DNA of 64,000 nt, taken from Candidatus Borkfalkia faecavium (GTDB taxonomy: Bacteria > Bacillota > Clostridia > Christensenellales > Borkfalkiaceae). Below the pieces are notes generated by a model that was given only the letters and a program-made list of their open reading frames with translations, searched no databases and had not been told where the DNA came from. The stretch is taken from positions 1-64,000 of the forward strand of contig DXEW01000005.1 of NCBI GenBank assembly GCA_019114755.1. The letters are read 5' to 3'. The translations under genes were made by a program, and so were the position numbers. Of this stretch, positions 12,398-62,011 are shown piece by piece (the first letter of the stretch is position 1; every line of letters starts with the position of its first letter).

Positions 12398-12415
12398 AGT
12401 ACTATGCCAGACATA
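12398..12415 (-). repeat. dispersed palindromic repeat, copy 1
   Basis: AGTACTATGCCAGACATA between pyrC and pyrE; the pyrE ribosome site AAGGAG follows directly, so the element pads the gap without breaking the operon. Confidence 0.8.
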
Positions 12416-12428
12416 AAGGAGTGCTAAC

Positions 12429-13088
12429 ATGAACTATAAACAGAAATTCATCCAATTTTTGGCGGAGTGCGGCGTGCTGAAATTTGGCACGTTTACGCTC
12501 AAAAGCGGCAGGGTGGCTCCCTATTTTCTGAATGCGGGAGAGTATAAGACGGGCGCGCAGATCCGCCGCCTGGGCGAATTTTACGCCGCCTGCATCCATG
12601 AAAACAATATCCCCGTGCAGACGCTGTTCGGGCCCGCCTATAAGGGCATCCCGCTGGCGCTGTCCGCCGCCGTGGCGCTGTACGAACAGTACGGGCAAGA
12701 CGTCAACTTCTGCTTTGACCGCAAGGAGGTCAAAGACCACGGCGAGGGCGGCATGTTCGTCGGCAAACAGCTGCAAGACGGCGAGCAGGTAGTCATCGTC
12801 GAAGACGTGATGACCAGCGGCAAGGCGCTCAAAGAGGTGCTTCCCAAGCTGCGCGGCGCGGCGAAGGTGGACATCACCGGCATGGTGATCACCGTCGACC
12901 GCATGGAAAAGGCGCTGGGCAGCGAACAGTCTGCCGTGCAGCAGGCCTTTGCCGAAGAGGGCGTGAAGGTATATTCCATCGTCACCATCGCCGACATCAT
13001 CGAGGCGCTGGAAGAGGGCGTCATCGCCGGCAAAGAGCACGTCCCCGCCATCCGCGCCTATCTGGAACAATACGGCGCGCGCTATTGA
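12429..13088 (+). CDS. pyrE: orotate phosphoribosyltransferase
   Basis: 219 residues. Transfers the ribose phosphate of PRPP to orotate to give OMP. The PRPP loop VVIVEDVMTSGKA is at about residues 120-132 and the flexible loop has RKEVKDHGEGG. The start follows AAGGAG by 8 bases. Middle of the pyr operon, 10 bases ahead of pyrF. Confidence 0.95.
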   Translation: MNYKQKFIQFLAECGVLKFGTFTLKSGRVAPYFLNAGEYKTGAQIRRLGEFYAACIHENNIPVQTLFGPAYKGIPLALSAAVALYEQYGQDVNFCFDRKEVKDHGEGGMFVGKQLQDGEQVVIVEDVMTSGKALKEVLPKLRGAAKVDITGMVITVDRMEKALGSEQSAVQQAFAEEGVKVYSIVTIADIIEALEEGVIAGKEHVPAIRAYLEQYGARY

Positions 13089-13098
13089 GAGGTAGACT

Positions 13099-14007
13099 AT
13101 GATCATCGATACATTGATAGATAAAATAAAGAAATGCGATAACCCGACGGTCGTGGGGTTGGATACCTCCTTCGACTATCTTCCCGAAGGGATGCGCGCG
13201 GACATCGACGATTTTGCCGGCGCCGCGGAGGCGGTGTTCGCCTTCAACCGCGCCCTCATCGATGCCGTCTGCGATATCGTCCCCGCCGTCAAGGTGCAGA
13301 TCGCCTATTACGAGATGTACGGCGTCGAGGGGATGCACGCGTTTGATAAGACCTGCCGCTATGCGGCGTCCAAGGGGCTGATCGTGATGACGGACGCCAA
13401 GCGCAACGACATCGGCGCCACCGCTTCCTGCTACGCCAAGGCGTACCTCGGCCAGACGCAGGTTGGCGGCGAAAAATACAGCGCCTTTGATTCCGATTTT
13501 CTCACCGTCAACGGCTATCTGGGCTCGGACGGCATCAAGCCCTTTTTGGAGCAGGTGAACGGTCGCGGCAAGGGCATCTTCGTGCTGGTCAAGACCTCCA
13601 ATCCCTCCAGCGGCGAGCTGCAGGACCTGCGGCTGGAAAACGGCAAAACGGTGTACGAGTACATGGGTTCTTTGGTGGAAGAGTGGGGCAAAGACAGCAT
13701 CGGCGGCTACGGCTATTCCTCCGTGGGCGCCGTCGTCGGGGCGACGCACCCGGCGCAGGCGGCGATCTTGCGGCGCGAGATGCCGCACACCTTCTTCCTC
13801 ATCCCCGGCTACGGCGCACAGGGGGGCAAAGCGGACGACCTGAAAGTCTGCTTTGACGCTCGCGGCCTTGGCGGCATCGTCAATTCCTCGCGCGGCATCC
13901 TCTGCGCATACCGGCAGGAAAAGTACGCCGGTATGCCCTTCGACGCCGCGGCGCGCAGGGCATGTTTGGATATGAAGGAAGATCTGAACCGCGCTATTCG
14001 CGGCTGA
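13099..14007 (+). CDS. pyrF: orotidine 5'-phosphate decarboxylase
   Basis: 302 residues, which is the longer type-2 form of the enzyme. The catalytic segment MTDAKRNDIGATA (about residues 96-108) contains the Asp-Lys-Asp triad. Makes UMP from OMP. Ribosome site GAGAGG lies just ahead of ATG 13099. The next gene is separated by 60 bases holding a dispersed repeat. Confidence 0.93.
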   Translation: MIIDTLIDKIKKCDNPTVVGLDTSFDYLPEGMRADIDDFAGAAEAVFAFNRALIDAVCDIVPAVKVQIAYYEMYGVEGMHAFDKTCRYAASKGLIVMTDAKRNDIGATASCYAKAYLGQTQVGGEKYSAFDSDFLTVNGYLGSDGIKPFLEQVNGRGKGIFVLVKTSNPSSGELQDLRLENGKTVYEYMGSLVEEWGKDSIGGYGYSSVGAVVGATHPAQAAILRREMPHTFFLIPGYGAQGGKADDLKVCFDARGLGGIVNSSRGILCAYRQEKYAGMPFDAAARRACLDMKEDLNRAIRG

Positions 14008-14032
14008 TCGGGTCAATATCGGCTGTAAGCGA

Positions 14033-14050
14033 AGTACTATGTCTGACATA
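14033..14050 (-). repeat. dispersed palindromic repeat, copy 2
   Basis: AGTACTATGTCTGACATA between pyrF and pyrK, preceded by GCGA as in copy 7. TATGTCTGACATA is a perfect odd-centred palindrome. Confidence 0.85.
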
Positions 14051-14067
14051 AACACGGAGAAACTGCC

Positions 14068-14844
14068 ATGAAAGAATGTAAAGTCAAGGTGCTGGAAAAC
14101 GCACCGTTGGCGGCGGGGATCTACCGCATGCGCTTTTCCATCCCCGATGGGGTGGAGGGGCTGCAGTGCGGCAAGTTCGTCAATATTTCCGTGGGCGACG
14201 GCGCGCATCTGCTGCGCAGGCCCATCGCTCTCTGCGAATACGATGAAAAGTCCGCCACCATCTGCTATCAGCTCAAAGGAGAGGGCACGCGCGCGATGGG
14301 CCGCGCGCAGGCGGGCGACGAACTGACCTGCGTCCTGCCCCTCGGCAACGGTTTTCATATCGAAGAAGGGCAGCGCCGCGTGGCGCTGATCGGCGGCGGC
14401 GTCGGCGTCTTCCCCATGGTGTCGGTGCTGCATGCCTATAAGGGCGCGCACAAAGATTTTTATTCCTATATCGGTTTCCGCAGCAAGAACGCCGTCTGCA
14501 TGGAAAACGCCTTCGCCTCGCAGTCTATCCGCTCCGTCATCGTCACCGACGACGGCAGCTACGGCTATCAGGGCAACGCGGTGCAGGCGTTTTTAGACGA
14601 CTATGCCAACGCCGCGCCCGACGTCATCCTTGCCTGCGGGCCGACGCCCATGCTCCGCGCCCTCAAGGCGGGGCTGGATGAGAATAACATCGCTGTCCCT
14701 TGTTATGTATCGCTGGAAGAGCGCATGGGGTGCGGCATCGGCGCCTGCCTCGTCTGCACCTGTAAAAAATTGGACGGGAGCCGCGCCCGCGTCTGTAAAG
14801 ACGGGCCCGTGTTTCCCATCGGGGAGGTAGACTTGCATGGCTGA
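14068..14844 (+). CDS. pyrK: dihydroorotate dehydrogenase electron transfer subunit
   Basis: 258 residues. An N-terminal FAD domain (RRPIALCEYD type motif near residues 50-60), a nucleotide-binding IGGGVGVFPM and four cysteines around GCGIGACLVCTC that hold a 2Fe-2S cluster. It passes electrons from PyrD to NAD+, the type 1B arrangement of Bacillota. Overlaps pyrD by 8 bases. Confidence 0.93.
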   Translation: MKECKVKVLENAPLAAGIYRMRFSIPDGVEGLQCGKFVNISVGDGAHLLRRPIALCEYDEKSATICYQLKGEGTRAMGRAQAGDELTCVLPLGNGFHIEEGQRRVALIGGGVGVFPMVSVLHAYKGAHKDFYSYIGFRSKNAVCMENAFASQSIRSVIVTDDGSYGYQGNAVQAFLDDYANAAPDVILACGPTPMLRALKAGLDENNIAVPCYVSLEERMGCGIGACLVCTCKKLDGSRARVCKDGPVFPIGEVDLHG

Positions 14845-15751
14845 TCTGCGCGTCAATATCTGCGGAGTCGAGCTTAAAAATCCCGTCATCGCCGCCAGCG
14901 GCACCTTCGGCTTCGGGCGGGAATTCGACGAGATCTATGACATCTCCTGCCTGGGCGGCGTCAGCACCAAGGGCCTGACGCTTGAACCCCGCCCCGGCAA
15001 CCCCACGCCGCGCATCGCCGAAGGGCACGGCGTCATCCTCAATGCCGTAGGGCTGCAAAACCCGGGCGTGGAGGCGTTTATCCGCGACGACCTCGCCTTT
15101 TTGAAGGGGAAGGGGGTCGCCGTCATCGCCAACGTGGCGGGGAAGACGATCGAAGACTACGCCGCCATCTGCGCCCGCCTGGACGGGTTGGTGGATATGA
15201 TCGAGCTGAACATCTCCTGCCCCAACGTCAGGTGCGGCGGCATGGCGTTCGGCATCCGCCCCGAAAACGTGGAAGAGGTCACGCGCGCCGCCAAGGGCGC
15301 GCTCAAACGGACGCCGCTGATGGTCAAACTCTCCCCGAATGTGGAGAATATCGCCGTCAACGCACTCGCCGCCCAGAGCGGCGGGGCAGACTGCGTCTCC
15401 CTCATCAACACGCTGACGGGCATGGTGGTCGACATCGAGCGCCGCCGCCCGCTCATTGCCAACAATACGGGCGGCGTTTCGGGGGCGGGCATCCGCCCGA
15501 TCGCGGTGCGCATGACCTACGAGGTCTGCCGCGCCGTCAGCATCCCCGTCATCGGCATGGGGGGAATCACCCGCGCCGCAGACGCGCTCGAATTCATCAT
15601 CGCGGGAGCTGCGGCGGTGCAGGTCGGCACGGCGAACTTTACCGATACCCTCGCCATGCCCAAGATCGTCGAAGGGCTGAACGAGTGGATGGACGCGCAC
15701 GGCGTCAAGAATATCGAAGAGATCCGCGGCACCCTCGTCCTCAACGGTTAA
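14837..15751 (+). CDS. pyrD: dihydroorotate dehydrogenase, catalytic subunit type 1B
   Basis: 304 residues. FMN-binding barrel with IAASGTFGFGREF near the N-terminus, LNISCPNVRCGGMAFG carrying the catalytic Cys of class 1 enzymes, and IGMGGI near the end. Oxidises dihydroorotate to orotate with PyrK. Last gene of the operon; carAB genes are not in this operon and must lie elsewhere. Confidence 0.95.
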   Translation: MADLRVNICGVELKNPVIAASGTFGFGREFDEIYDISCLGGVSTKGLTLEPRPGNPTPRIAEGHGVILNAVGLQNPGVEAFIRDDLAFLKGKGVAVIANVAGKTIEDYAAICARLDGLVDMIELNISCPNVRCGGMAFGIRPENVEEVTRAAKGALKRTPLMVKLSPNVENIAVNALAAQSGGADCVSLINTLTGMVVDIERRRPLIANNTGGVSGAGIRPIAVRMTYEVCRAVSIPVIGMGGITRAADALEFIIAGAAAVQVGTANFTDTLAMPKIVEGLNEWMDAHGVKNIEEIRGTLVLNG

Positions 15752-15759
15752 AAGCGATC

Positions 15760-15777
15760 TATGCCGCGCATAGTACT
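15760..15777 (+). repeat. dispersed palindromic repeat, copy 3
   Basis: TATGCCGCGCATAGTACT, then TCGCAAACG, eight bases after the pyrD stop. Its left half GCCGCGC differs from the GTCAGAC form but matches copy 5. Confidence 0.85.
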
Positions 15778-15818
15778 TCGCAAACGTTCAAAAATTGCTC
15801 AATACTTTGATTTTAGGG

Positions 15819-15844
15819 GCGGGAATGTCAGTTCCCGCTCTTTT
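15819..15844 (+). terminator. terminator of the pyr operon
   Basis: GCGGGAA (15819-15825) pairs with TTCCCGC (15832-15838), followed by TC and four T. It overlaps the last codons of the convergent deacetylase gene. Confidence 0.7.
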
Positions 15845-16679
15845 GCTGCAATGTTTCAAACCTGTAGCCGCGGGCTTTGTAATGGCGTATGATGCGCGGC
15901 AGACAGGCCACGGTGGCGCGGTAATTCACGCCGTCGTGCAGAAGCAATACGATGCTCTGTTTGTCCGCCCCCGTGCGCACGGCGTTTTCAAACAGCTCGT
16001 CCGCCGTCGCGTGCGGCAGTACGGAATCGTCTGCCGAAGCGTTCCAGGCGCAGACGGTCAGCCCCGCCTCGCGCACGGCGCGCCGCAGCGCTTCCGGCTT
16101 GCCGTATTCTCCGCCGGGGAAGCGGTACAGCTTTCCCTCGTATCCGGGCAGGGCGGCGCGTATCGCCTTGCGGCAGGCGGCAATATCGCGCAGCAGCGCC
16201 TGCGGCGAGGCGTATATCTCTCGATAGACGTGCGAATAGGTGTGGATGCCGACGGCGTGGCCGGCGGCGGCCGTGCGCCGCACGATATCTTCGCGCCCGC
16301 TGATCTGCCTGCCAATCAAAAAGAAGGTGGCGCGGACGCCGAACGTATCGAGGATATCCAGCACCTTCGGTGTGGTGGAGTCGGTAGGGCCGTCGTCAAA
16401 GGTCAGGCAGATGACTTTTTGCTCCGTATCTTCCGCCGCGGTTGTAGGCACTGTGGGAGTAAAACGGGAGGATATGGAAAGGGCGGGCGCTTCCTGCGCC
16501 TCTGCCGCGCCATATGTCGCCTGCGTCTCTGCCGTGGCGGCGGTGAACAGCGCAATTTGCGCCCCGGATGCGGCGACGAACAAAGCAGCCTGCGCCCCGG
16601 ATGCGGCGGCGGGTGTCGGAACGGCGGGCAGGCCGAACAGGCATGCCAGGTACGCCAATAATAAGGCAAATGCTTTCAT
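15828..16679 (-). CDS. polysaccharide deacetylase (NodB domain), secreted
   Basis: 283 residues. A signal peptide occupies about residues 1-24, followed by a low-complexity linker in which AASGAQ plus ALF is repeated twice (about 25-47). The NodB domain shows TFDDGPT, the metal-binding HTYSH, RFPGGEYGK and LLLHDG near the end. Such enzymes remove acetyl groups from peptidoglycan or other amino-sugar polymers outside the membrane. It stands alone and converges on the pyr operon. Confidence 0.88.
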   Translation of the reverse strand: MKAFALLLAYLACLFGLPAVPTPAAASGAQAALFVAASGAQIALFTAATAETQATYGAAEAQEAPALSISSRFTPTVPTTAAEDTEQKVICLTFDDGPTDSTTPKVLDILDTFGVRATFFLIGRQISGREDIVRRTAAAGHAVGIHTYSHVYREIYASPQALLRDIAACRKAIRAALPGYEGKLYRFPGGEYGKPEALRRAVREAGLTVCAWNASADDSVLPHATADELFENAVRTGADKQSIVLLLHDGVNYRATVACLPRIIRHYKARGYRFETLQQKSGN

Positions 16680-16823
16680 GCCCGTAGTTTGCGCCTCTTT
16701 GCCTGTTCAATGCGCGCGCAAAGCCGCGCGTTTTTTTAATGGGGAAGCTGCGATTTTGTCTTTGCCGCGGCGGAGGCGCCGCTATGCTGCAAAAAAATTG
16801 CAAAAATTTTTGTTTCAAAACAG

Positions 16824-16852
16824 TTGACATTTGTTTTTCGGCGTGGTATGCT
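16824..16852 (+). promoter_or_regulatory. promoter of the T-box/trpB unit
   Basis: TTGACA at 16824-16829, 17-base spacer, TATGCT at 16847-16852, just ahead of the T-box leader. Confidence 0.8.
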
Positions 16853-16859
16853 ATAGAAA

Positions 16860-17115
16860 ACCGACGAGGTAAAGTAGTAACCTGCAAGTACAGATCCACA
16901 GAGAGTTCCCGGTGGTGGAAGCGGAACGGTCTTGTCGCAGCGCGAATGGATTACCGAGGGCGAGGGCAAAAGGCGCAAGCCGAGTAGTTTTCGACGTGGC
17001 TTTCACGTTACAGGAAGAGGGTATGGTAGTACCTGTTTGAGGCAGCGCACTTGCGCTGTGAATTTGGGTGGCAACACGGTCAATTCGTCCCAAAACGGAT
17101 GGACCGTGTTTTTTT
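16860..17115 (+). promoter_or_regulatory. T-box leader, tryptophan specifier
   Basis: Long structured leader with the AGAGAG bulge and GGTGGAAG apical segment of Stem I, then GCGAATGGA whose GAA-TGG specifier (TGG at 16947-16949) reads the tryptophan codon. The T-box GGGTGGCAACACGG is at 17066-17079. Uncharged tRNA-Trp should prevent the terminator formed by ACACGGTC and GACCGTGT (17074-17108) plus seven T. Confidence 0.9.
17074..17115 (+). terminator. T-box regulated terminator
   Basis: ACACGGTC (17074-17081) pairs with GACCGTGT (17102-17109) and is followed by T7. Its 5' arm shares bases with the T-box, so antitermination and termination exclude each other. Confidence 0.85.
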
Positions 17116-17157
17116 GTACCATTTTAACATTGATTTCATTTACAGGAGGAAACAACT

Positions 17158-18537
17158 ATGGCAAAACAGATCCCGTACAAGATCTACCTTTCGGAAGACG
17201 AGATCCCGAAGCAGTGGTATAACCTGAACGCCGCGATGAAGCAAAAACATGCGCCGTTCCTGAATCCCGCAACGCTGCAGCCCTGCACCAAAGACGACCT
17301 GCGCCCCGTGTTCTGCGACGAATGCGTGGATCAGGAAATGAATATGACGGACGAATATATCGACATCCCCGAAGAGATCCGCGCTTTTTATAAGATGTAC
17401 CGCCCGTCGCCGCTGGTGCGCGCCTACGTCCTCGAAAAAGAGCTGGGCACGCCCGCCGAGATCTATTATAAGTTTGAAGGAAACAATACCTCCGGCTCGC
17501 ACAAGCTCAATTCCGCCGTGGCGCAGGCGTACTACGCCAAAAAGCAGGGGCTCAAGTCTGTGACGACGGAGACGGGCGCCGGCCAGTGGGGCACCGCCCT
17601 CTCGATGGCGTGCGCTTTCTACGGGCTGGACCTGATCGTGTATATGGTCAAGGTCTCCAGCGAGCAGAAGCCGCACCGCAAAGAGGTGATGCGCACCTAC
17701 GGCGCCACCGTCATCCCGTCCCCTTCGGATACGACGGAAGCGGGCAGAAAGATCCTGGCAGAGTTCCCCGGCACGGGCGGTTCGCTCGGCTGCGCCATCA
17801 GCGAGGCGGTGGAGCGCGCCGTCAAAAGCGATTCCTGCCGCTATGTGCTGGGCAGCGTGCTCGACCACGTCCTGCTGCATCAGTCGGTCATCGGTCTGGA
17901 GAGCAAGGCGGCGCTGGAAAAGTACGGCGTGCAGCCGGACATGATCATCGGCTGCGTCGGCGGCGGCTCCAACTACGGCGGCCTCATCGCTCCCTTCATG
18001 GGGGATAAGATCAAAGGGAAGAACAATATCGACTTCCTCGGCGTCGAGCCTGCCAGCTGCCCTTCGCTCACGCGCGGCAAATTCGTGTATGACTTCTGCG
18101 ACAGCGCCAAGATCACACCGCTGGCGAAGATGTACACGCTCGGCTGCGGATTCATGCCCGCGCCCAACCATGCGGGCGGCCTGCGCTACCACGGCATGAG
18201 CCCCGTCGTTTCCGAATTGTATCACCAGGGACTGATGCGCGCCACCGCGGTAGAACAGACCAAGGTGTTTGAAGCGGCGGAACTGTTCGCGCGCACCGAG
18301 GGCATCCTTCCCGCGCCCGAATCCAGCCACGCCATCCGCGCCGCCATCGACGAGGCGCTCAAATGCAAGCAGACGGGCGAAAAGAAGGTCATCCTCTTCG
18401 GCCTGACCGGCACGGGTTATTTCGACATGACCGCCTACAAGCAGTACAACGACGGCACGATGACCGATTATATCCCCACCGATGCCGACCTGGAGCGCGG
18501 ATTTGCGAGTATTCCCGATATTCCCCAGAATAAATAA
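17158..18537 (+). CDS. trpB: TrpB-like tryptophan synthase beta chain (TrpB2 type)
   Basis: 459 residues, longer than TrpB1 (about 400) and matching the TrpB2 branch. The PLP lysine is in GSHKLNSA (K116), the phosphate-binding loop is GCVGGGSNYGG, and the conserved ETGAGQWG is present. It condenses indole with serine to give tryptophan. No trpA or other trp gene is adjacent, so it may salvage external indole. The Trp T-box upstream supports a role in tryptophan supply. Confidence 0.88.
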   Translation: MAKQIPYKIYLSEDEIPKQWYNLNAAMKQKHAPFLNPATLQPCTKDDLRPVFCDECVDQEMNMTDEYIDIPEEIRAFYKMYRPSPLVRAYVLEKELGTPAEIYYKFEGNNTSGSHKLNSAVAQAYYAKKQGLKSVTTETGAGQWGTALSMACAFYGLDLIVYMVKVSSEQKPHRKEVMRTYGATVIPSPSDTTEAGRKILAEFPGTGGSLGCAISEAVERAVKSDSCRYVLGSVLDHVLLHQSVIGLESKAALEKYGVQPDMIIGCVGGGSNYGGLIAPFMGDKIKGKNNIDFLGVEPASCPSLTRGKFVYDFCDSAKITPLAKMYTLGCGFMPAPNHAGGLRYHGMSPVVSELYHQGLMRATAVEQTKVFEAAELFARTEGILPAPESSHAIRAAIDEALKCKQTGEKKVILFGLTGTGYFDMTAYKQYNDGTMTDYIPTDADLERGFASIPDIPQNK

Positions 18538-18576: not shown

Positions 18577-18577
18577 A

Positions 18578-20965: not shown

Positions 20966-20983
20966 TATGTCTGAAAGAGTACT
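20966..20983 (+). repeat. dispersed palindromic repeat, copy 4
   Basis: TATGTCTGAAAGAGTACT, followed by GTGTAAACATG. The right-hand part is nearly identical to copy 9 (GTACTGTGCAAACATGG), extending similarity to about 30 bases. Confidence 0.75.
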
Positions 20984-21604: not shown

Positions 21605-21622
21605 TATGCCGCGCATAGTACT
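21605..21622 (+). repeat. dispersed palindromic repeat, copy 5
   Basis: TATGCCGCGCATAGTACT, then ATGCAAAAC, six bases after the yfcE stop codon. CATAGTACTATG inside it is a perfect 12-base palindrome. Confidence 0.85.
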
Positions 21623-29625: not shown

Positions 29626-32157
29626 ATGGAACAAAAATTCAAGGTGAGCGGCATGACCTGTGCCGCCTGTTCGGCGGGCATCCAAAAGACGGTCGGCAAG
29701 ATGAGCGGCGTGCACAGGGCGGAAGTCAGCCTCATGGGCGAGTGCATGACCGTCGATTACGACGAGTCGATGACCGATGCCGAAAAGATAATCGGGACGG
29801 TCGTATCGCTGGGTTACGGCGCCGAAGCAGACGACGGCAAAGCGACCGCTAAGGCGGCGGAAGGGGGAAAGCAGGCCCTGTCCGGGCACGCGGCGGAGGC
29901 GCGCAAACTGCGCACCCGCTTCATCGCCTCCCTCTGTTTTTTGCTGCCGCTGATGTATTTTACCATGGGGCACATGTTCGGGGCGCCGCTGCCGTGGTTT
30001 TTTGAGATCGCTTCCAATTTCGGGCTCGTCCAGCTGCTGTTGACGACGCCCGTGCTGTTCATCAACTTCGCCTTCTTCAAGAGCGGCTTCAAGGCGGCGA
30101 TCAAGCGGGTGCCCAACATGGACACGCTGGTCAGCCTGGGCGCGGGCGTCTCTTACCTGTTCAGCGCCGTCGTCCTGTTCATCGTCCCTACGCGGGAAGA
30201 CGGCATGCTCTTTGCCATGAACAATTTGTTCTTCGAGTCCGCGGCGATGGTGCTGACCCTCGTCACCCTCGGCAAGTGGCTGGAGGCGCGTTCAAAAAAG
30301 AAGACGGGCGAAGAGGTGGAAAAGCTGCTGCGGCTCGCCCCCGAAACGGCGACGGTGGAGCGGGACGGCAAGCAGATGACCGTCCGCCTGCAGGAGCTGC
30401 GCATCGGCGACATCGTCGTCGTCAAACAGGGAGACAGCATCCCAGCCGACGGCAGGGTGGTCGCCGGCAATTCCTTCGTCGATACCTCTGCCATCACGGG
30501 CGAGAGCCTGCCGGTGGAAATAGGCCCGGGCGACGCCGTCACCAGCGCCGCCATCAACCGCGGCAACGTCATCCGCGTCCGCGCCGAAAAGGTGGGGGAA
30601 GATACCGTCTTATCCAAGATCGTGCGCCTGGTACAGAATGCGGGCACGTCGAAAGCGCCTATCGAAAAGGCGGTAGACAAGATCGCCGCCGTCTTCGTCC
30701 CCGCCGTGCTGGGCATCGCCCTTCTCACCTTCCTCGTGTGGATGATCTTGTGGGGGACGCACGCCGTCGATATCGCCTTCTTTGAAGTGCTGAGCATGGC
30801 GATCAGCGTGCTCGTCATCTCCTGCCCGTGCGCGCTCGGCCTGGCGACGCCCGTCGCCGTGATGGCGGCAACGGGCAGGGGCGCGTCCCTCGGCATCCTG
30901 TTCAAAGACGCCGAGGCGCTGCAGAAGGCGCGCGGCATCCAAAACGTGCTGTTAGATAAGACGGCGACCATCACCGAGGGGAAGCCGCGGGTGACGGATA
31001 TCTGCCTGTATGGCGGAAGTATGCGTGGCGAAGTACTCTCTATATTCGGCGGAATTGAGCTGAATTCCAATCATCCGCTGGCGGAATGCATTCTTTTGCA
31101 GGCGAAGGAAGAGGGCGCCGTGCCCGCGCAGGCAGCCGATTTTTCCTATACGAGCGGCAAGGGCGCGCAGGCGCGGGTGAACGGAAAACTGTGCGGCATC
31201 GGCAACAGCGGCCTCATGCATATGCTCGGCGCCGACCTGTCCGCCTGCCGGCAGGACGCGGAGCGGCTCTCCGCCGAAGGGAAAACGGTGCTGTACTGCG
31301 CCGAGGATGGCGCCGTATCGGCACTCATCGCCGTGGCGGATACGCTGAAGGAGGGCAGCCGCGAGGCCGTCGCCGAACTCAAGGCGCGCGGCATCCGCCC
31401 CGCCATGCTGACGGGCGACGGGCAGGGCGCGGCGAGGGCGATCGCGGCGCAGGTCGGCATCCAAGAGGTGTACGCCGACGTACTGCCCGAAGACAAGCTG
31501 AACATCGTCATCGAAAATAAAAAGAAGGGCATGACCGCCATGGTCGGCGACGGCATCAACGATTCGCCCGCCCTCAAAGAGGCGGACGTCGGCGTCGCCA
31601 TGGGCAACGGCACGGATATCGCCATCGACTCGGCAGACGTCGTGCTGGTGGGCGGCGATCTGCGCGCGCTGGAAAACGCCATCGACCTCAGCCGCGCGGC
31701 GGTCCGCAATATCCATCAGAACTTGTTCTGGGCGTTTATCTACAACCTGCTCTGCATCCCCATCGCTGCGGGCGCGCTGTTCGCCGTGGGGGTGGTGCTC
31801 GACCCCATGTACGGCGCGGCGGCGATGAGTTTGAGTTCGCTGTTCGTCGTCACCAACGCCCTGCGCCTGATGCGTTTCCGACCCAAAAAGAAGTCGGCGG
31901 AGGTAAAGGCAGAAACAAAACATCAAAACAGTCAAGATATGAACGGAGGTATATGTATGGAAAAGATCCTGACCATCGAAGGGATGAGCTGCAGCCATTG
32001 CAGCGCCCGCGTCGAAAAGGCGCTGAACGCGCTGGAAGGTACGCAGGCGACGGTGGAACTGAAAAAGAAGCGCGCCGTCGTGCAGACGCAGCAGCCGGAC
32101 GAAGTCCTCGTCAAGGCGGTGGAAGACGCCGGCTACGAGGTGAAAAAGATCAAATGA
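29626..32157 (+). CDS. copA: copper-exporting P-type ATPase with C-terminal CopZ domain
   Basis: 843 residues. N-terminal metal-binding GMTCAAC, eight membrane helices, TGES, the transport motif CPCALGLATP, then the phosphorylation site, TGDG and GDGINDSPAL. The phosphorylation motif reads DKTAT (D444), not the near-invariant DKTGT. The frame continues past the last helices into a second metal-binding domain, GMSCSHC, identical in layout to free CopZ. A weak dispersed-repeat copy lies at codons 465-471. Exports Cu(I). Confidence 0.9.
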   Translation: MEQKFKVSGMTCAACSAGIQKTVGKMSGVHRAEVSLMGECMTVDYDESMTDAEKIIGTVVSLGYGAEADDGKATAKAAEGGKQALSGHAAEARKLRTRFIASLCFLLPLMYFTMGHMFGAPLPWFFEIASNFGLVQLLLTTPVLFINFAFFKSGFKAAIKRVPNMDTLVSLGAGVSYLFSAVVLFIVPTREDGMLFAMNNLFFESAAMVLTLVTLGKWLEARSKKKTGEEVEKLLRLAPETATVERDGKQMTVRLQELRIGDIVVVKQGDSIPADGRVVAGNSFVDTSAITGESLPVEIGPGDAVTSAAINRGNVIRVRAEKVGEDTVLSKIVRLVQNAGTSKAPIEKAVDKIAAVFVPAVLGIALLTFLVWMILWGTHAVDIAFFEVLSMAISVLVISCPCALGLATPVAVMAATGRGASLGILFKDAEALQKARGIQNVLLDKTATITEGKPRVTDICLYGGSMRGEVLSIFGGIELNSNHPLAECILLQAKEEGAVPAQAADFSYTSGKGAQARVNGKLCGIGNSGLMHMLGADLSACRQDAERLSAEGKTVLYCAEDGAVSALIAVADTLKEGSREAVAELKARGIRPAMLTGDGQGAARAIAAQVGIQEVYADVLPEDKLNIVIENKKKGMTAMVGDGINDSPALKEADVGVAMGNGTDIAIDSADVVLVGGDLRALENAIDLSRAAVRNIHQNLFWAFIYNLLCIPIAAGALFAVGVVLDPMYGAAAMSLSSLFVVTNALRLMRFRPKKKSAEVKAETKHQNSQDMNGGICMEKILTIEGMSCSHCSARVEKALNALEGTQATVELKKKRAVVQTQQPDEVLVKAVEDAGYEVKKIK
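31020..31037 (+). repeat. dispersed repeat, weak intragenic copy
   Basis: TATGCGTGGCGAAGTACT inside copA, encoding roughly MRGEVL. Twelve bases (TGGCGAAGTACT) match copy 9 exactly. The protein length here is normal, so this may be coincidence. Confidence 0.4.
31957..32157 (+). CDS. copZ: copper chaperone CopZ, nested in frame in copA
   Basis: 66 residues beginning at an in-frame ATG inside copA. GGAGG at 31945-31949 lies seven bases upstream, a ribosome site that has no other use. The product has GMSCSHC for Cu(I) binding and the usual ferredoxin-like chaperone length. It can thus be made both as a fused domain of CopA and as a free chaperone. Inference; independent initiation needs proof. 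Confidence 0.65.
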   Translation: MEKILTIEGMSCSHCSARVEKALNALEGTQATVELKKKRAVVQTQQPDEVLVKAVEDAGYEVKKIK

Positions 32158-43314: not shown

Positions 43315-43332
43315 AGTACTATGTCAGACATA
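43315..43332 (-). repeat. dispersed palindromic repeat, copy 7
   Basis: AGTACTATGTCAGACATA between thyA and folA, preceded by TTTTGCGA, matching copies 2 and 3 outside the core. Confidence 0.87.
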
Positions 43333-50506: not shown

Positions 50507-50524
50507 TATGTCAGACATAGTACT
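50507..50524 (+). repeat. dispersed palindromic repeat, copy 8
   Basis: TATGTCAGACATAGTACT, the best match to the consensus, followed by ATACATCC. It lies between the fucO terminator and the aspS gene. Confidence 0.87.
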
Positions 50525-53465: not shown

Positions 53466-54518
53466 TTGCTGTATTGCCTGCAAATTTTGGCGTCGGCGCT
53501 GTTTTCGTCGCCGGCGATGGTCGCCTTGTTGCTGATCGCGGCGGGCGCCGCGTTCGTCATGGCGGGGGCTGCCGCCATGCATTGCTGTTTTTATCGGCTG
53601 ACGCTGCACATGGGGGATGAAGTCGTGTCCGAACGCCACCCCGGCAGCCGCGCGGTGGAGGTGGAGGCGCCGCCCCCGCGCGCGGGGATGCGCTTTACGG
53701 GCTGGTATACAGACCGCGCCTGTACGCGGGCGGCTGAAAACCCGTTCCGCGTGCCCGTGCGCGGCGCGCATCTGTATGCGGGCTGGGAGGCGTGCGGCGA
53801 ACAAGAGGACGATTACGCGCAAACTGTGTCTGGCGAAGTACTGTGCAAACATGGAAAATATGCCGCCGTGTCGACCGGAGAAGGTGAGCAAGAGCAAAAA
53901 ACCGATACAGACGATGCGGACGTGTATGTGCGCTTCAAGTGCAGTTTCCGCGCTAAACTCATCCAGGCGGATGCGCGCGTTAAACAGATGTACAACGGCC
54001 TGCGCAGCGAACTTCTCTCGTATATCGGCGTGCGCGAGCGCGTCAGTTGGGAGGCGGACAGTTATTTTATCGGTAAGGAGTTGTTCGCGCGGGTCAAGGT
54101 ATATGCCAAGAGTATCACCGTGCACTTTGCCTTGGATGCTTCCGATCCCGAATTGTTCGGCTGCCTGTACCGCGACGACGGCGGCAGGGCACGCTTTGCC
54201 GCCGTGCCCGTGCGCTGCCGCGTCACCGATGCGCGCAGCTATAAAAATATGCTGGCGGTGCTTCGTCTGGCGGCGGAGCGCAAGGAACTCAGCTACAGCC
54301 GCGTGGAAGAGTACGGCGACATCCCGTATGAAAGCCGCGACGAGCTGATCGAGCAGGGGCTCATCAAGTTGTGCGCCAAAAGCGGCGGCAAGAGCGTTTC
54401 AGCCGAAAAACTGCGGCAGATGATCGCTGCGGGTGTTCGCGTGCAGACGGCCACGTCGTACTTCGCCCGTCAGCGGCAAACTGCGGGGCGGGCGGATGAC
54501 GAGAGCGCGGCGCAGTGA
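53466..54518 (+). CDS. membrane protein with a Listeria-Bacteroides (InlB B) repeat
   Basis: 350 residues from TTG 53466, nine bases after GGAGG; the nearby ATG at 53459 is in another frame and stops early. One membrane segment (about residues 15-40), then a single repeat-type domain with GMRFTGWYTD and HLYAGWE (about 74-108). Dispersed repeat copy 9 falls in the linker and encodes SGEVLCKHGK. The C-terminal half (YVRFKCSFRAKLIQAD onward) is unrecognised. It precedes a GntR-ABC operon but has its own terminator. Confidence 0.7.
   Translation: MLYCLQILASALFSSPAMVALLLIAAGAAFVMAGAAAMHCCFYRLTLHMGDEVVSERHPGSRAVEVEAPPPRAGMRFTGWYTDRACTRAAENPFRVPVRGAHLYAGWEACGEQEDDYAQTVSGEVLCKHGKYAAVSTGEGEQEQKTDTDDADVYVRFKCSFRAKLIQADARVKQMYNGLRSELLSYIGVRERVSWEADSYFIGKELFARVKVYAKSITVHFALDASDPELFGCLYRDDGGRARFAAVPVRCRVTDARSYKNMLAVLRLAAERKELSYSRVEEYGDIPYESRDELIEQGLIKLCAKSGGKSVSAEKLRQMIAAGVRVQTATSYFARQRQTAGRADDESAAQ
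53825..53842 (+). repeat. dispersed repeat, copy 9, inside a coding region
   Basis: TGTGTCTGGCGAAGTACT followed by GTGCAAACATGG. It is in frame within a linker of the 350-residue membrane protein. Right-hand part matches copy 4 for about 30 bases with few differences. Confidence 0.7.
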
Positions 54519-54655: not shown

Positions 54656-55030
54656 ATGAATGTAATAGTCAGCAACGCGAGCGACAAGCCGATCTACGAA
54701 CAGATCTACGCGCAGATCAAGGGCGCGATCCTCCGCGGCGAGTGCAGAGAGGGGGAGTTGCTTCCTTCCATCCGCGCCCTGGCAAAGGAGCTGCGCATCA
54801 GCGTCATCACCACAAAGCGTGCCTTTGACGATCTGGAGCGCGACGGCTTTATCTATACCGTGCAGGGAAAGGGTTCATTCGTCGCCACAAAAAACAAAGA
54901 GATGGTGCGCGAAGAGCATTTGCGGCGGATCGAGCAATGCCTGAGCGAAGCGATGAAAATTGCCCGCGAAGGTGGCATTTCCGCCGAAGAATTGGCGCAG
55001 ATGTTTGAAATTTTGCTGAAAGGAGAGTAG
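54656..55030 (+). CDS. GntR-family repressor, YtrA type
   Basis: 124 residues. Winged helix with PIYEQIYAQIKGAILRGE, LPSIRALAKELRISVITTKRAF and GFIYTVQGKGSFVA, then a short helical dimerisation tail. The short tail without ligand domain marks the YtrA subgroup, which controls ABC exporters next door and responds to cell-wall antibiotics. It probably binds the palindrome at 54611-54635. Confidence 0.9.
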   Translation: MNVIVSNASDKPIYEQIYAQIKGAILRGECREGELLPSIRALAKELRISVITTKRAFDDLERDGFIYTVQGKGSFVATKNKEMVREEHLRRIEQCLSEAMKIAREGGISAEELAQMFEILLKGE

Positions 55031-55043
55031 TATGTCAGACATA
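55026..55043 (-). repeat. dispersed repeat, copy 10, supplying a start codon
   Basis: AGTAGTATGTCAGACATA spans the gntR stop codon and the ATG (55032) of the ABC gene. Its right half encodes Met-Ser-Asp-Ile, the first residues of the ATPase. One mismatch (AGTAGT for AGTACT). Confidence 0.8.
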
Positions 55044-56573: not shown

Positions 56574-56602
56574 TTTACATTTTCATCATTCCGTGTTACA
56601 AT
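56574..56602 (+). promoter_or_regulatory. promoter of the flavodoxin/ferredoxin gene
   Basis: TTTACA at 56574-56579, 17-base spacer, TACAAT at 56597-56602. Confidence 0.75.
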
Positions 56603-56622
56603 GATACAAAAGGAGAAGGGCT

Positions 56623-57402
56623 TTGAAACTGTATTTGGTCTATTTCAGCCCCACGCACACGACAAAAAAGATCGTGGCTACCGTGGGCAAAGTATTTTTT
56701 GAACGGCTGCTCTGCAGGGCCCAGCTCGTCGACCTGACAAACATCGCCGCGCGTTCCCGCTCGTATGCGTTTGCGGAAGACGACGTCGTCGTGTTCGGCG
56801 CGCCCGTCTACGGCGGCAGGCTGCCGCAGCTGCTTGTGCCCGTTTTGCAGAACATGCAGGGCGGCGGTGCGCGGGCGGTCGTGCTGTCGGTATACGGGAA
56901 CCGCGACTATGACGACGCCCTCTTAGAGACCGCCGACCTGTTCACGGAGCGGGGATTTTGCGTGTGCGCGGCTGCCGCCTTTATCGGCGAGCATTCCTAT
57001 TCTTCCGCCGTGGCCAAAAACAGGCCGGACGCGGAAGACCTCATCGCGGCGACCACCTTTGGCGTCGCCGCCTTTGCAAACGTAGAACAGGGCGTCGCCT
57101 GCCGCAAGCCCATCCGCGGCGCGCGCCCGTATAAACAGCTGAGCGGGTTTATGCTCGCCCCCAAGGCGGCGCCCGCCGTCGATGCGGAAAAATGTGTCCG
57201 CTGCGGGGCGTGTATCGCCGCCTGCCCCGCGGCAAATATCGGCGCGGACCTGTCCGATCAGGGCAGGTGCATTTCCTGCGCGGCGTGCGTCAAATTTTGC
57301 AGGCAGGGGGCGCGCAGCTTTACCGATCCCGCCGTTTTGGCGGCGAAAGGGCGCCTGGAAGGCAGCTGTACGGCCCGCCGCCAGCCGGAATTTTTTATTT
57401 GA
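56623..57402 (+). CDS. EFR1-type flavodoxin-ferredoxin fusion
   Basis: 259 residues. N-terminal flavodoxin-like FMN domain (YFSPTHTTKKIV, VFGAPVYGGRLP) and a C-terminal pair of 4Fe-4S clusters (CVRCGACIAACP and CISCAACVKFCRQGA). Fits the EFR1 family of electron carriers in anaerobes. The start is TTG 56623, seven bases after AGGAG; no suitable ATG exists. Partner enzyme unknown. Confidence 0.83.
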   Translation: MKLYLVYFSPTHTTKKIVATVGKVFFERLLCRAQLVDLTNIAARSRSYAFAEDDVVVFGAPVYGGRLPQLLVPVLQNMQGGGARAVVLSVYGNRDYDDALLETADLFTERGFCVCAAAAFIGEHSYSSAVAKNRPDAEDLIAATTFGVAAFANVEQGVACRKPIRGARPYKQLSGFMLAPKAAPAVDAEKCVRCGACIAACPAANIGADLSDQGRCISCAACVKFCRQGARSFTDPAVLAAKGRLEGSCTARRQPEFFI

Positions 57403-57482
57403 AGCGCGAAAAGGCATTCCACGGTAAATTTCAAAAATGCCTTTCACATATGATTTTCAAAAACGGGAGATAAGCGATACAG

Positions 57483-58235
57483 ATGAACAGCCTCGTTACG
57501 GCGGACGACATTCAAAAGCTGGCGGATGAAAATGTAGACAATATCCGCAAATTTTTGAAGGAAGCGGGCGACGGCGCTTCCGGGTTCGACCTTTTGGAAC
57601 AATTTATGGAGCTGATGATGCGCTACAGCGCCGCCATCCGCGAAGTGCGCACTAAATTTGAGGTGCTCAACGACGAGTTTTCTCTCCGCAACAGCCGCAA
57701 CCCCATCGAGAGCATCACTTCGCGGGTGAAAAAGCCGATGAGCATTTTTGAAAAGCTCCGCCGCATGGGGGAGCCCGTCACGCTGCAAAAGATCGAAGAA
57801 TGCCTCAACGACGTGGCGGGCATCCGCGTCATCTGCCCGTTCATCGACGACATCTACAGCGTCGCCGAAATGCTCGCCCGGCAGGACGACATCACCGTGC
57901 TGCGGGTGAAGGACTATATCCGCAAACCAAAGCCCAACGGCTATCGCAGCTATCACATGATCGTGCAGGTGCCCGTGTTCTTTTCGGACGGGAAGCGCCC
58001 GATGCGGGTGGAGATACAGATCCGCACGGTGGCGATGGATTTTTGGGCGAGTTTGGAACATCAGATGAAATATAAAAAGGATAGCGCTGACCGCCCCGAG
58101 ATCTCGGCGGAATTAAAGAGCTGTGCCGAAACGATCGCCGCCACGGATGCGCGCATGCTCGCCATCCGCAAGCGCATCGAGGCGCTGGAGCGGCGCAAAA
58201 AAGACGGAGACGACGAGGCGTTTTCGCTCAAGTAA
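57483..58235 (+). CDS. relQ: small alarmone synthetase (RelQ type)
   Basis: 250 residues. Synthetase-only RelA/SpoT domain with DVAGIRVICPFIDDIY, KPKPNGYRSYHMI and VEIQIRTVAMDFWASLEHQ; no hydrolase or TGS domain. Makes (p)ppGpp from GTP/GDP and ATP under stress. The C-terminal helix RKRIEALERRK is typical of the tetrameric RelQ group. Confidence 0.88.
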   Translation: MNSLVTADDIQKLADENVDNIRKFLKEAGDGASGFDLLEQFMELMMRYSAAIREVRTKFEVLNDEFSLRNSRNPIESITSRVKKPMSIFEKLRRMGEPVTLQKIEECLNDVAGIRVICPFIDDIYSVAEMLARQDDITVLRVKDYIRKPKPNGYRSYHMIVQVPVFFSDGKRPMRVEIQIRTVAMDFWASLEHQMKYKKDSADRPEISAELKSCAETIAATDARMLAIRKRIEALERRKKDGDDEAFSLK

Positions 58236-58256
58236 AGTACATCCAAAACAGGGATG

Positions 58257-58283
58257 AGCGGCGTGCCATGCGCCGCTTATTTT
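58257..58283 (+). terminator. terminator of relQ
   Basis: AGCGGCG (58257-58263), seven-base loop, CGCCGCT (58271-58277), then TATTTTAT. Confidence 0.65.
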
Positions 58284-58342
58284 ATACTGTTATTTTGGTA
58301 TACATTCGGCAGCCGCCGCATTCGCGACGGCTGTGTGTATGA

Positions 58343-59761
<1,419 letters not shown>

Positions 59762-59843
59762 AATTATATCATCGTGAAAATAGAAAAAAGGCGCGGGCCG
59801 TAAAATGCGGTCCGTGCCTTTGGTCTGTTGTCTATACTGCGTT

Positions 59844-60092
59844 TCAGGCGCGCTTTGAAAAAGCGGTCGTGGAGCTGACGCCTTCCAGCTTGCCGATCTT
59901 GCCGGACATGGCGCTGATCTCGTCCTGCGGGGCGTCGATGGCGATGCTGATGACGTTGATGCCCTTGTTGCGGTAGGGCACGCCCATGCGGCCGATGATG
60001 TAGTGGCCGTATTCGTGCAGGATGGCGTTGAGCGACGCCACCGACTCTTCGTTTTCGACGATGATGCTGACAACGGCTACGCGTGTTTCCAT
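59844..60092 (-). CDS. TM1266-like (iron-only hydrogenase system) regulator
   Basis: 82 residues of ACT-like fold: VAVVSIIVENEESVASLN, LHEYGHYIIGRMGVPYR and SIAIDAPQDEISAMSGKIG. This is the TM1266 family, often beside [FeFe]-hydrogenase maturation genes; none lie nearby here, so its target is unknown. Ribosome site GGAGG precedes ATG 60092. Confidence 0.85.
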   Translation of the reverse strand: METRVAVVSIIVENEESVASLNAILHEYGHYIIGRMGVPYRNKGINVISIAIDAPQDEISAMSGKIGKLEGVSSTTAFSKRA

Positions 60093-60217
60093 ATACGATC
60101 CTCCGATGGTTTTTCAAATCGATCACACACAGTATAGCACCTTTTTGCCTTGCGGGCAACAAAATTAAATTATATTTTTTGTTTTTATAATATGGAAGGG
60201 TAAAATTTGCCAAAGGC

Positions 60218-60246
60218 TTGTCTTGTACGCGCGGGTATGGTATAAT
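60218..60246 (+). promoter_or_regulatory. promoter of the Cdd1/DUF3795 gene
   Basis: TTGTCT at 60218-60223, 17-base spacer, TATAAT at 60241-60246. Confidence 0.7.
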
Positions 60247-60265
60247 GGAAAAAAAGGACGAGCCT

Positions 60266-60793
60266 ATGAGTGAACTGCGGAAGATCCCCAATGTGGGCAG
60301 ACAGACGGAAAAAGACCTGATCGCCATGGGGTATACCACGATCGATTCGCTGCGCGGAAAGAGCGCGGAAGAGCTGTATCTGGAAGAATGCGCGCTGCGC
60401 GGCTTTACCTTGGATAGGTGCCAGCTGTATCTGTACCGCGCCGTCGAATACTTCCTCAATACAAAAAACCCCGACCGTGCAAAGTGCGCGTGGTGGCATT
60501 GGAAAGACGAATTCGTGCAGCCCTCGCCCTGCGGCGCCGTCTGCGCCTCCTGCACGCGTTTCCCCGCGGACTGCCGCGGCTGCAGAGTCATCGAGGGAAA
60601 AGTGTATTGGCTGCAATATACGGGCGATGATGTCTGCCCGGTCTACGGCTGCTGCGTCGGCGGAAATGGGATGAAGGACTGCGGGACCTGTAAAAACCTG
60701 CCCTGCGAAAAATTCACCAAAGACCCGACCGTCTCCGATGAAGAAAACGCCGCGCATCTGCAAGAGATGGTGGACAGGCTGCGGCGGGGATGA
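60266..60793 (+). CDS. Cdd1-like helix-hairpin-helix plus DUF3795 cysteine domain
   Basis: 175 residues. The N-terminal 75 residues match the pathogenicity-locus (Cdd1) helix-hairpin-helix fold (IPNVGRQTEKDLIAMGY, then ALRGFTLDRCQLYLYRA). The C-terminal part has paired cysteines (CGAVCASC, CRGC, CPVYGCC, CGTCKNLPC) typical of DUF3795. A DNA- or metal-related role is possible; no function is established. Confidence 0.78.
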   Translation: MSELRKIPNVGRQTEKDLIAMGYTTIDSLRGKSAEELYLEECALRGFTLDRCQLYLYRAVEYFLNTKNPDRAKCAWWHWKDEFVQPSPCGAVCASCTRFPADCRGCRVIEGKVYWLQYTGDDVCPVYGCCVGGNGMKDCGTCKNLPCEKFTKDPTVSDEENAAHLQEMVDRLRRG

Positions 60794-60842
60794 ATTTGCC
60801 GCAGGCTATGTTTTTTCCGCCGGTTTAATTTGTCACGGCATG

Positions 60843-60875
60843 AAAAAGGAACACCAAATTACATTTGGTGTTCCG
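60843..60875 (-). terminator. terminator after tRNA-Thr
   Basis: GGAACACCAAAT and ATTTGGTGTTCC form a 12-base-pair hairpin (60849-60874) followed in the leftward direction by five T. Confidence 0.85.
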
Positions 60876-60880
60876 TAAAT

Positions 60881-60956
60881 TGGAGCTGATAGCGGGATTT
60901 GAACCCGCGACCTCGTCCTTACCAAGGACGTGCTCTACCTACTGAGCCATATCAGC
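60881..60956 (-). tRNA. tRNA-Thr (GGT)
   Basis: 76 bases with encoded CCA. Acceptor GCTGATA pairs with TATCAGC; anticodon loop TTGGTAA gives GGT; TTCAAAT in the T loop. Confidence 0.95.
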
Positions 60957-61156
60957 AAAGCTCTTTCGCTCACAAGCTTTATTATTTTACCTGAAAACAG
61001 AAAAAAAGTCAAATGAAAAGTTTGCCGAAAAGAGAATAATTTGAAAAATTTATTTGTTATGATTGCAGATTGCGGCAAAGAGGCTGCGAGGGCGGCTTTT
61101 TGCGGGCGGGCCCGTGCGGCAAAGTTTTACTTTACAGAGGAAAGCGGAGGATAAGA

Positions 61157-61741
61157 ATGGATAAACGAGAAGAATTTTTGCGCATCTTCGATGAAAAGAT
61201 CACGCGGGAAGGCGCGGCGGAGCTGCGTGCCTATCTGACAGAGAGCGACTTTTTTCAGGCGCCCGCGAGCATGCGTTATCACTGCGCCTATGCGGGCGGG
61301 CTATGCGAGCACAGCGTCAACGTGTACCGCCGCCTGCTCCGCCATGTGGAGGATGAATACGGCAGCGACTATCAAAAAATCGTTCCCGACGAGTCGATAG
61401 CCATCTGCGGGCTGCTGCACGATGTGTGCAAGGTCAATTTCTACCGCGCAGATTTCCGCAACGTGAAGGAAAACGGCGAATGGGTGCGCAAGCCCTGTTT
61501 CGTGCGCGAGGAATTGTTTCCCTTCGGGCACGGCGAAAAGTCGGTGTTTATCGTCAACCGCTTTCTGCACCTGACCGGCGCGGAGGCGATGGCCATCAAC
61601 TGGCACATGGGCGGGTTCGACAGCCGCGCGAAAGGGGGAGACTATTCCGTCAGCGACGCCTACTGCAAATATCCCTTAGCCGTGCTGCTGCACGTCTCCG
61701 ATTTAGAGGCGACGTATATCGACGAAAAGCGCGGTTCTTAA
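61157..61741 (+). CDS. HD-domain hydrolase
   Basis: 194 residues from ATG 61157 after GGAGG. HD-domain residues are in YHCAYAGGLCEHSVNVY and CGLLHDVCKVNFY, with HGEKS and INWHMGGFD later, resembling the YhaM-type/phage HD hydrolases. Likely acts on a nucleotide or nucleic acid phosphoester; exact substrate unknown. Confidence 0.8.
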   Translation: MDKREEFLRIFDEKITREGAAELRAYLTESDFFQAPASMRYHCAYAGGLCEHSVNVYRRLLRHVEDEYGSDYQKIVPDESIAICGLLHDVCKVNFYRADFRNVKENGEWVRKPCFVREELFPFGHGEKSVFIVNRFLHLTGAEAMAINWHMGGFDSRAKGGDYSVSDAYCKYPLAVLLHVSDLEATYIDEKRGS

Positions 61742-61778
61742 GTGCGGCATGGCTAAGTGTGCATTGCAAAGAAAAAGC

Positions 61779-61814
61779 AAAAACACGGCATAGCTTCTGC
61801 TATGCCGTGTTTTT
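61779..61814. terminator. bidirectional terminator
   Basis: AAAAACACGGCATAGC (61779-61794), TTCT loop, GCTATGCCGTGTTTTT (61799-61814). Perfect 16-base arms with A and T tracts, serving both the HD gene and tRNA-Pro. Confidence 0.9.
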
Positions 61815-61890
61815 GGTCGAGGTGACGGGACTTGAACCCACGACCTCTTGGTCCCGAACCAAGCGCGCTACCAAACTGCGCTACACCTCG
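61814..61890 (-). tRNA. tRNA-Pro (CGG)
   Basis: 77 bases with encoded CCA. Acceptor CGAGGTG pairs with CACCTCG; anticodon loop TTCGGGA gives CGG; TTCAAGT in the T loop. Confidence 0.95.
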
Positions 61891-61993
61891 CCATTGCCGT
61901 GTCTGTGATACAGCCTATATAGTATAGCAAAAAGTTTTTTGTTTGTCAAACAAAGTGCGGAAAATTTTTGCAAATCTTATCCGCAATCAAATC

Positions 61994-62011
61994 TATGTCA
62001 GGCATAGTACT
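61994..62011 (+). repeat. dispersed palindromic repeat, copy 11
   Basis: TATGTCAGGCATAGTACT followed by ATGTAAACG, between tRNA-Pro and the GH43 gene. Confidence 0.85.

Follow-up and report, generated by a model that had tools for sequence, protein, structure and literature searches.

A family of dispersed palindromic sites with phased flanks in Christensenellales and a candidate membrane-anchored PadR protein that may bind them

What are the short and closely similar palindromes that recur between the genes of a 64,000-nucleotide stretch of Candidatus Borkfalkia faecavium, and what might recognise them? The stretch, referred to here as the window, comprises positions 1 to 64,000 of contig DXEW01000005.1 (assembly GCA_019114755.1). 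A sequence-only reading of it had offered three roles for the repeat: a small mobile element, a site for a DNA-binding protein, or an mRNA signal. Our comparative analysis of related genomes supports, at the level of sequence, the second of these options. The sites form a distinct family, keep their positions among relatives, follow the strand of the surrounding genes, and are flanked by A/T tracts phased with the DNA helix. In addition, they co-occur with a gene for a large PadR protein, and a site lies upstream of that gene. We give even odds to the proposal that these conserved sites, with a PadR protein of predicted membrane anchorage as their probable binder, serve to moor the chromosome to the cell membrane, which in some genera would happen mainly near the likely terminus.

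Sites in the window and its genome

All nine copies that had been listed as good are present where they had been placed. A search of the window with TATGTCWGRCATAGTACT at three or fewer mismatches gave 12 matches, compared with a mean of 0.01 in 100 dinucleotide shuffles, none of which reached 12. With a 32-column weight matrix the nine copies score from 26.1 to 46.2, and five mononucleotide shuffles of the window contain no score of 10 or more. The two copies that had been called weak, at 31020 and 53825, score 19.3 and 24.2 and lie within called genes; membership of the former is doubtful. The sites of the window are as follows.

12398..12415, minus strand: site in the pyrC-pyrE gap, 0 mismatches, matrix score 38.0; gap occupied in 26 of 35 relatives.
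14033..14050, minus strand: site in the pyrF-pyrK gap, 0 mismatches, matrix score 36.4; gap occupied in 33 of 35 relatives.
15760..15777, plus strand: site 8 bp past pyrD, ahead of a convergent gene, matrix score 38.6.
20966..20983, plus strand: site in the gap between the galM-like gene and the YfcE-type phosphodiesterase gene, matrix score 26.1.
21605..21622, plus strand: site in the gap between the phosphodiesterase and diaminopimelate dehydrogenase genes, matrix score 34.7.
31020..31037, plus strand: weak match within a heavy-metal ATPase gene, of doubtful membership, matrix score 19.3.
43315..43332, minus strand: site in the gap between the thymidylate synthase and dihydrofolate reductase genes, matrix score 46.2, the highest in the window; kept in genomes G011 and G015.
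50507..50524, plus strand: site in the gap between the lactaldehyde reductase and aspartate/asparagine tRNA ligase genes, matrix score 41.3.
53825..53842, plus strand: weak match within a called gene, matrix score 24.2.
55026..55043, minus strand: site overlapping the end of a GntR-type gene and the start codon of an ABC ATPase gene, matrix score 31.8.
61994..62011, plus strand: site in a convergent gap, matrix score 38.5.

In several relatives a site also follows pyrD, mostly in the orientation opposite to that of the copy at 15760. The window contains, in addition, a tetrahydrofolate riboswitch at 4414-4511 (74.3 bits).

The family extends through the genome of the window (G000), a draft metagenome-assembled genome of 1.73 Mb in 38 contigs that is 89.9% complete with 3.2% contamination; all genomes used in this work are drafts. 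At one or fewer mismatches G000 has 71 matches and the reversed pattern has none, and at three or fewer mismatches the counts are 145 and 9. There is thus an excess in both the window and the genome, rather than the chance-level counts that, according to the sequence-only reading, would refute it. A second set of pyrK, pyrF, pyrE and pyrC is found in G000 at C37:40000-44000 (L173), with sites of its own at C37:40931 and 42542. This set perhaps represents a co-binned relative or a true duplication, and some of the G000 sites may therefore stem from a co-binned relative.

Within the genus of the window the core is TATGYCNGRCATAGTACT followed by NYGYAAA, and the trailing NTGYAAAC noted earlier is recovered in a loose form. 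The suggestion that the two halves vary in a correlated way holds in part: positions 4 and 8 are associated (Fisher p=0.0015), whereas positions 5 and 7 are not (p=0.29). Thirty sites from other families reveal a fuller palindrome, TACTATG-YSNSR-CATAGTA, the centre of which is position 6 (0-based) of the original pattern.

Two other accounts of the core were rejected. Read as codons in the plus orientation it gives M-S/P-x-I-V-L-C-K; however, protein models for the YfcE-type phosphodiesterase and diaminopimelate dehydrogenase begin at residues 33 and 26 of their frames, so that the sites precede the genes. An RNA hairpin, or an mRNA signal in general, is poorly supported, since the sites occur in both orientations, the inner pair (positions 5 and 7) can form in only 54% of 205 sites, and none of the sites has an Rfam match.

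Placement and orientation

Placement was determined in parts of seven genomes, with genes predicted by a purpose-written caller. This gave 160 classified sites, two further sites at the ends of pieces being omitted. Intergenic DNA makes up 17.1% of the bases and holds 125 of these sites (p=4e-64). The earlier description of copies in both orientations, mostly between co-directional genes, applies here as well, with 91 of the 125 intergenic sites in such gaps. Among gaps of at least 25 bp there are 26 sites in 170 convergent, 8 in 160 divergent and 91 in 841 co-directional gaps, and convergent gaps are richer in sites than divergent ones (p=0.002). The orientation of a site agrees with the regional majority gene strand in 128 of the 160 cases. 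The same agreement is seen for 28 of the 34 sites located in convergent or divergent gaps (p=0.0002).

These placements bear on a possibility that we regard as unlikely, namely a large ordinary regulon in which transcription of the adjoining genes is controlled from the sites, these acting as operators for the membrane-bound PadR or for some other regulator. The flanking genes in G000 include pyrC, pyrE, pyrF, pyrK and pyrD, thymidylate synthase, dihydrofolate reductase, purH-purD and purL-nrdR, along with cytidylate kinases, Ham1, NUDIX, RNase H, uracil-DNA glycosylase, DNA polymerase IV, RecX and RecN. That nucleotide and DNA genes are so frequent in this raw list of neighbours may favour a regulon. 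However, the list also contains ClpP-ClpX, fumarase, HflX, 2-isopropylmalate synthase, transketolase, prephenate dehydratase and HemN. Moreover, sites lie between operon genes where there is no promoter, some are intragenic, and the preference for convergent over divergent gaps likewise argues against operators.

The core was also considered as a promoter and rejected. By eye, ribosome sites follow it directly, for example at pyrE, and a metallophosphoesterase gene of other families has promoter-like sequence beyond the element.

Conservation and spread across relatives

Matches at three or fewer mismatches are present in all 40 genomes of the genus that were searched, in most clearly above the reversed control and in some hardly so. 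At one or fewer mismatches G015 has 85 copies and G018 has 59, next to the 71 of G000, and the number falls to 2 among G006, G020 and G021. Allowing two or fewer mismatches, we found an excess in further genera of the window's family and in families f18, f19, f20, f30 and f32. Most of the order's 151 genomes showed no such excess. A genome is called motif-bearing below if it has at least four matches at two or fewer mismatches and at least twice as many as the control, which is the case in 27 of the 151.

Positions within the genus are well conserved at the two occupied pyr gaps listed above, and none of the Borkfalkia loci has a site in pyrE-pyrF (0/35) or pyrK-pyrD (0/32). A comparison with 30 loci of other families identified conserved sites. 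G000 and G108 share one that separates a methyltransferase gene from trhP, G000 and G160 share one at the 3' end of a HemN-like gene, and in G011 and G057 a site occupies the divergent gap that parts a large padR gene from one for an acyl-ACP thioesterase. A match in a large gene common to L029, L031, L042, L046 and L048 was left uncounted because conserved protein sequence can explain it.

At pyr loci outside Borkfalkia, one site is present upstream of a nearby metallophosphoesterase gene in 19 of 45 loci (L093-L134, e.g. L118:2786), where by eye it has a terminator-like hairpin on one side and a promoter-like sequence on the other. Exact-pattern searches of viral contigs with three patterns matched 8, 1 and 0 contigs.

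The range of copy numbers within the genus, from 2 to 85 at one or fewer mismatches, would be in keeping with the spread of a small non-autonomous mobile repeat. Such a repeat would also fit the length of the pyrC-pyrE gap, which has a median of 12 bp without a site and 58.5 bp with one. However, the two sets of gaps do not differ significantly in length (p=0.14), and clean element ends are not visible. Genomes of the genus hold sites at orthologous positions, as do, in a few cases, genomes of different families. In addition, only the core and the A/T phase described below are common to the copies, intragenic copies share that phase, and orientation tracks the regional gene strand. A mobile repeat is thus poorly supported, and we judge it highly improbable.

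Phased A/T flanks

Outside the core the sites share no sequence, and their A/T content oscillates with the helix. Among 205 sites, A/T peaks lie near -42, -31, -21, -10, 1, 11, 23, 33, 43, 53, 64 and 74, and the phased tracts reach about 60 bp on either side of the site. The sites used for this profile were mostly picked by the 32 columns of the matrix, without the arms. The period is 10.40 (right-arm 95% confidence interval 10.32-10.48) and the mirror axis is at 16.16, as determined from 256 distinct sites with orthologous ones included. Phasing is present in intragenic sites (n=16), in G015 (n=18), in intergenic sites of G000 (n=60), at the Borkfalkia pyr loci (n=65) and in other families (n=18), in each case with p<=0.001 relative to cyclic shifts. 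For 53 sites of other families the best mirror axis is the centre of the palindrome (r=0.76). These flanks point to DNA that may be bent or wrapped on a protein. Past the right arm, at +105 to +150, a fainter A/T periodicity in another phase is seen, and it may reflect related sequences.

Because of the phased profile we at first favoured strong DNA gyrase sites, or sites of another DNA-wrapping nucleoid protein, whose arms would wrap and fix supercoiling domains. The E. coli gyrase motif, as given in PMC6379681, extends over 130 bp (47+36+47 bp) with an A/T period of 10.75, and the span, conserved centre and phased A/T arms of our sites are similar. The preference for convergent over divergent gaps also agrees with such a protein. 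However, the confidence interval of our period does not reach 10.75, and the palindrome of other families has an odd-length centre, which is awkward for a 4-base staggered cut. The annotated gyrase site of phage Mu is not among the top matches, as it ranks 509 of 59734 with the full profile and 209 of 59834 with the core and right arm. Moreover, comparisons of GyrA (7 versus 12 sequences, without G057 and G166) and GyrB (9 versus 9) yielded almost no residue that separates motif-bearing from other genomes. As for other wrappers, Lrp/AsnC is absent from the motif-bearing G058. With the period, the odd dyad, the Mu ranking and the GyrA/GyrB comparison all weakening it, we now hold this explanation to be decidedly unlikely.

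The Mu gyrase site holds TCAGGCATA, a part of our core, at 17866-17874 (L199), 5 bases before the annotated cut. This is a single copy in the 30 kb scanned and its profile rank is low, so it is perhaps a coincidence.

A candidate binding protein

Judging from comparative sequence data, the best candidate for binding the sites is a large PadR protein. It was defined as a PadR match in an open frame of at least 350 amino acids and is found in 25 of the 27 motif-bearing genomes, compared with 42 of the 124 other genomes of the order (p=1.2e-8). G081, a member of the window's family, has neither the motif nor a PadR match. The protein of G011 consists of 631 amino acids, with a PadR domain at residues 26-98 (E=1.4e-18), a long acidic linker of low complexity and, at the C terminus, four hydrophobic segments. 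The nearest solved chain is a PadR (E=1.3e-29), and a protein search around the large PadR gave 1732 related proteins at E<=1e-10. By hydropathy, at least two hydrophobic C-terminal segments are present in 14 of 15 large PadR proteins from motif-bearing genomes, the fifteenth being cut by a contig end, and the C-terminal helices are predicted to lie in the membrane.

We also identified the palindrome upstream of the gene itself. Counting occurrences with at most 4 of 19 mismatches within 450 bp of the start, we found it ahead of the large padR in 14 of the 15 motif-bearing genomes compared. Five motif-free genomes with a large PadR have no such site; the closest of these five, G131, has 5 mismatches. 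By the same definition, the share of all genes with such an upstream site is 9.2% in G000, 11.1% in G015 and 5.6% in G011. The region upstream of padR is the sole compared position at which a site was found in families f1, f18, f19, f30 and f32. In G057 and G108 the palindrome lies, by eye, 7 and 10 bp upstream of a TTGACA-N17-TATTAT/TACAAT-like padR promoter, an arrangement that speaks for a regulon.

Distribution along the chromosome

Every site was listed in four low-copy genomes of the family, G157, G056, G141 and G184. A single contig carries 13 of the 23 distinct sites in G157 (9.3% of the genome, p=2e-8), 8 of 11 in G056 (11.4%, p=4e-6) and 11 of 21 in G141 (8.0%, p=1e-7), where the p-values are post hoc, as the richest contig was chosen after the lists had been viewed. 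Along each of these contigs orientation switches once, with the sites of both sides directed inward (G157, ----------+++; G056, ---+++++; G141, ----+++++++), and in all three genomes the large padR is located on the site-rich contig. In G157 the GC skew turns from positive to negative at about 135-140 kb, within the interval of the polarity switch (134.6-153.1 kb), which marks a terminus. For G056 and G141 the polarity switch suggests a terminus at the corresponding location. In 4-kb skew samples the left side of G056 is flat and the right side is -0.104.

On the terminus contig of G000 the cumulative skew peaks at about 130-140 kb, and in the high-copy genus of the window the sites have spread. 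Contigs with a ParB-like match hold 0 of 71 sites in G000 (chance 0.04) and 0 of 11 in G056 (chance 0.32); in G123 such a contig has none of the 26 sites listed of 31 (chance 0.01). A 28-mer at about 146370 of G157:C2 (L286:1370), near the polarity flip, has 19 matches to E. coli dif, and equally good sequences exist elsewhere.

A possible mooring of the chromosome to the membrane

The arrangement could work as follows. A PadR dimer with a long flexible linker would grip the palindrome, and the curved flanks would help it to retain about 120-130 bp of DNA. Many such contacts would tie the nucleoid, ancestrally perhaps the terminus region, to the membrane, and through the site ahead of its own gene the protein would gauge how much of it is present. 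At the terminus, the last region to segregate, a permanent anchor should be better tolerated. The idea of a terminus anchor agrees with the low-copy genomes and less well with the genus of the window.

Mooring is favoured over a regulon by three features: sites occur within operons, convergent gaps carry them more often than divergent ones, and they are oriented with the replichore. We regard mooring as the most likely role of the sites and a global membrane-bound regulator as its main rival. More specifically, we suggest tentatively, and with less than even confidence, an undescribed mooring system of Christensenellales-type Clostridia. Here a transmembrane PadR would act on tens of polar palindromes that were ancestrally placed around the terminus and directed toward it, and would do alone the work that Noc, MatP and their partners share in other bacteria.

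Several observations weigh against mooring by this protein. Large PadR proteins occur in 42 genomes without an excess of the motif. Conversely, G058 and G151 have the motif and no large PadR was found in them, although the five genus mates of G058 in our table do carry the gene. The padR of G059 has no upstream palindrome, those of G012 and G015 have weak ones (4 mismatches), and the position of padR is inherited, so the 14 upstream cases are not independent. A PadR dimer by itself does not account for phased arms of 60 bp. In the window's genus the midpoint of these arms is shifted rightward from that of the palindrome by about 10 bp, or one turn, and in the 53 sites of other families alternative axes score nearly as well (5.0, 0.73; 15.5, 0.72). 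With regard to the terminus, the contig enrichments carry their post hoc choice, the skew samples of G141 are flat both left and right, and G184 has no single polarity flip and no such contig pattern. The terminus contig of G000 is only mildly enriched (13 of 71 sites, p=0.014), and a search for dif gave nothing convincing. Finally, PMC4331003 reports that segregation in B. subtilis was disturbed when Noc was given a transmembrane anchor.

Among the papers listed by our searches of one literature library there was no account of the motif or of a membrane PadR, and a search there for papers on MatP in Firmicutes gave none. The sites and the protein would represent a candidate chromosome-organising code that is readable from sequence, together with its candidate protein, for a large and mostly uncultured gut group. 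If mooring is correct, a small transcription-factor fold would here have become part of an architectural protein anchored in the membrane, and the curvature of its DNA would be encoded in 60-bp flanks.

Comparison with known systems

The DNA uptake sequences of Haemophilus combine a core with helically phased A/T tracts. In contrast to these, the sites described here have far fewer copies, a palindromic core, arms on both sides and conserved positions. MatP of E. coli binds matS, a dispersed palindromic site that is confined to the terminus region and linked to the division site. Our sites are similarly dispersed palindromes, and in three of the four low-copy genomes half or more lie on one contig without being confined to it. 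However, the site and the protein family are different, and polarity of the sites and predicted membrane helices within the candidate binder are features of the present system.

LmrR is a PadR-family regulator, and the known operators of PadR proteins are few per genome. The candidate binder shares the N-terminal winged-helix domain of this family. However, solved PadR chains are mostly 100-150 amino acids long, whereas the candidate has a linker and a membrane part in addition.

Like the strong gyrase sites and the bacterial interspersed mosaic elements and repetitive extragenic palindromes (BIME/REP) of E. coli and phage Mu, as described in PMC6379681 and PMC11626157, our sites are extragenic and have phased A/T arms on either side of a conserved centre. 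They differ in their period of 10.40 rather than 10.75, in the odd dyad of other families, and in having a conserved specific core.

A further comparison is with Noc. According to PMC4331003, Noc of Bacillus subtilis is a sequence-specific protein that binds about 70 palindromes dispersed over the chromosome and brings DNA to the membrane, and the terminus lacks its sites. Noc was rejected as the binder here, as none of 27 genomes has a match to the Noc model TIGR04285 above its cut-off; sub-threshold matches, presumably ParB, are found in all 27. The site and protein make the coupling of chromosome and membrane in these cells directly testable. As with Noc and its binding sites (NBS), palindromic sites are dispersed on the chromosome here. 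Unlike the ParB-type Noc with its N-terminal amphipathic helix, however, the candidate binder has a PadR fold with predicted C-terminal transmembrane helices. The distribution of sites differs as well: three low-copy genomes gather them on the likely terminus contig, and the terminus contigs of both G157 and G000 bear sites.

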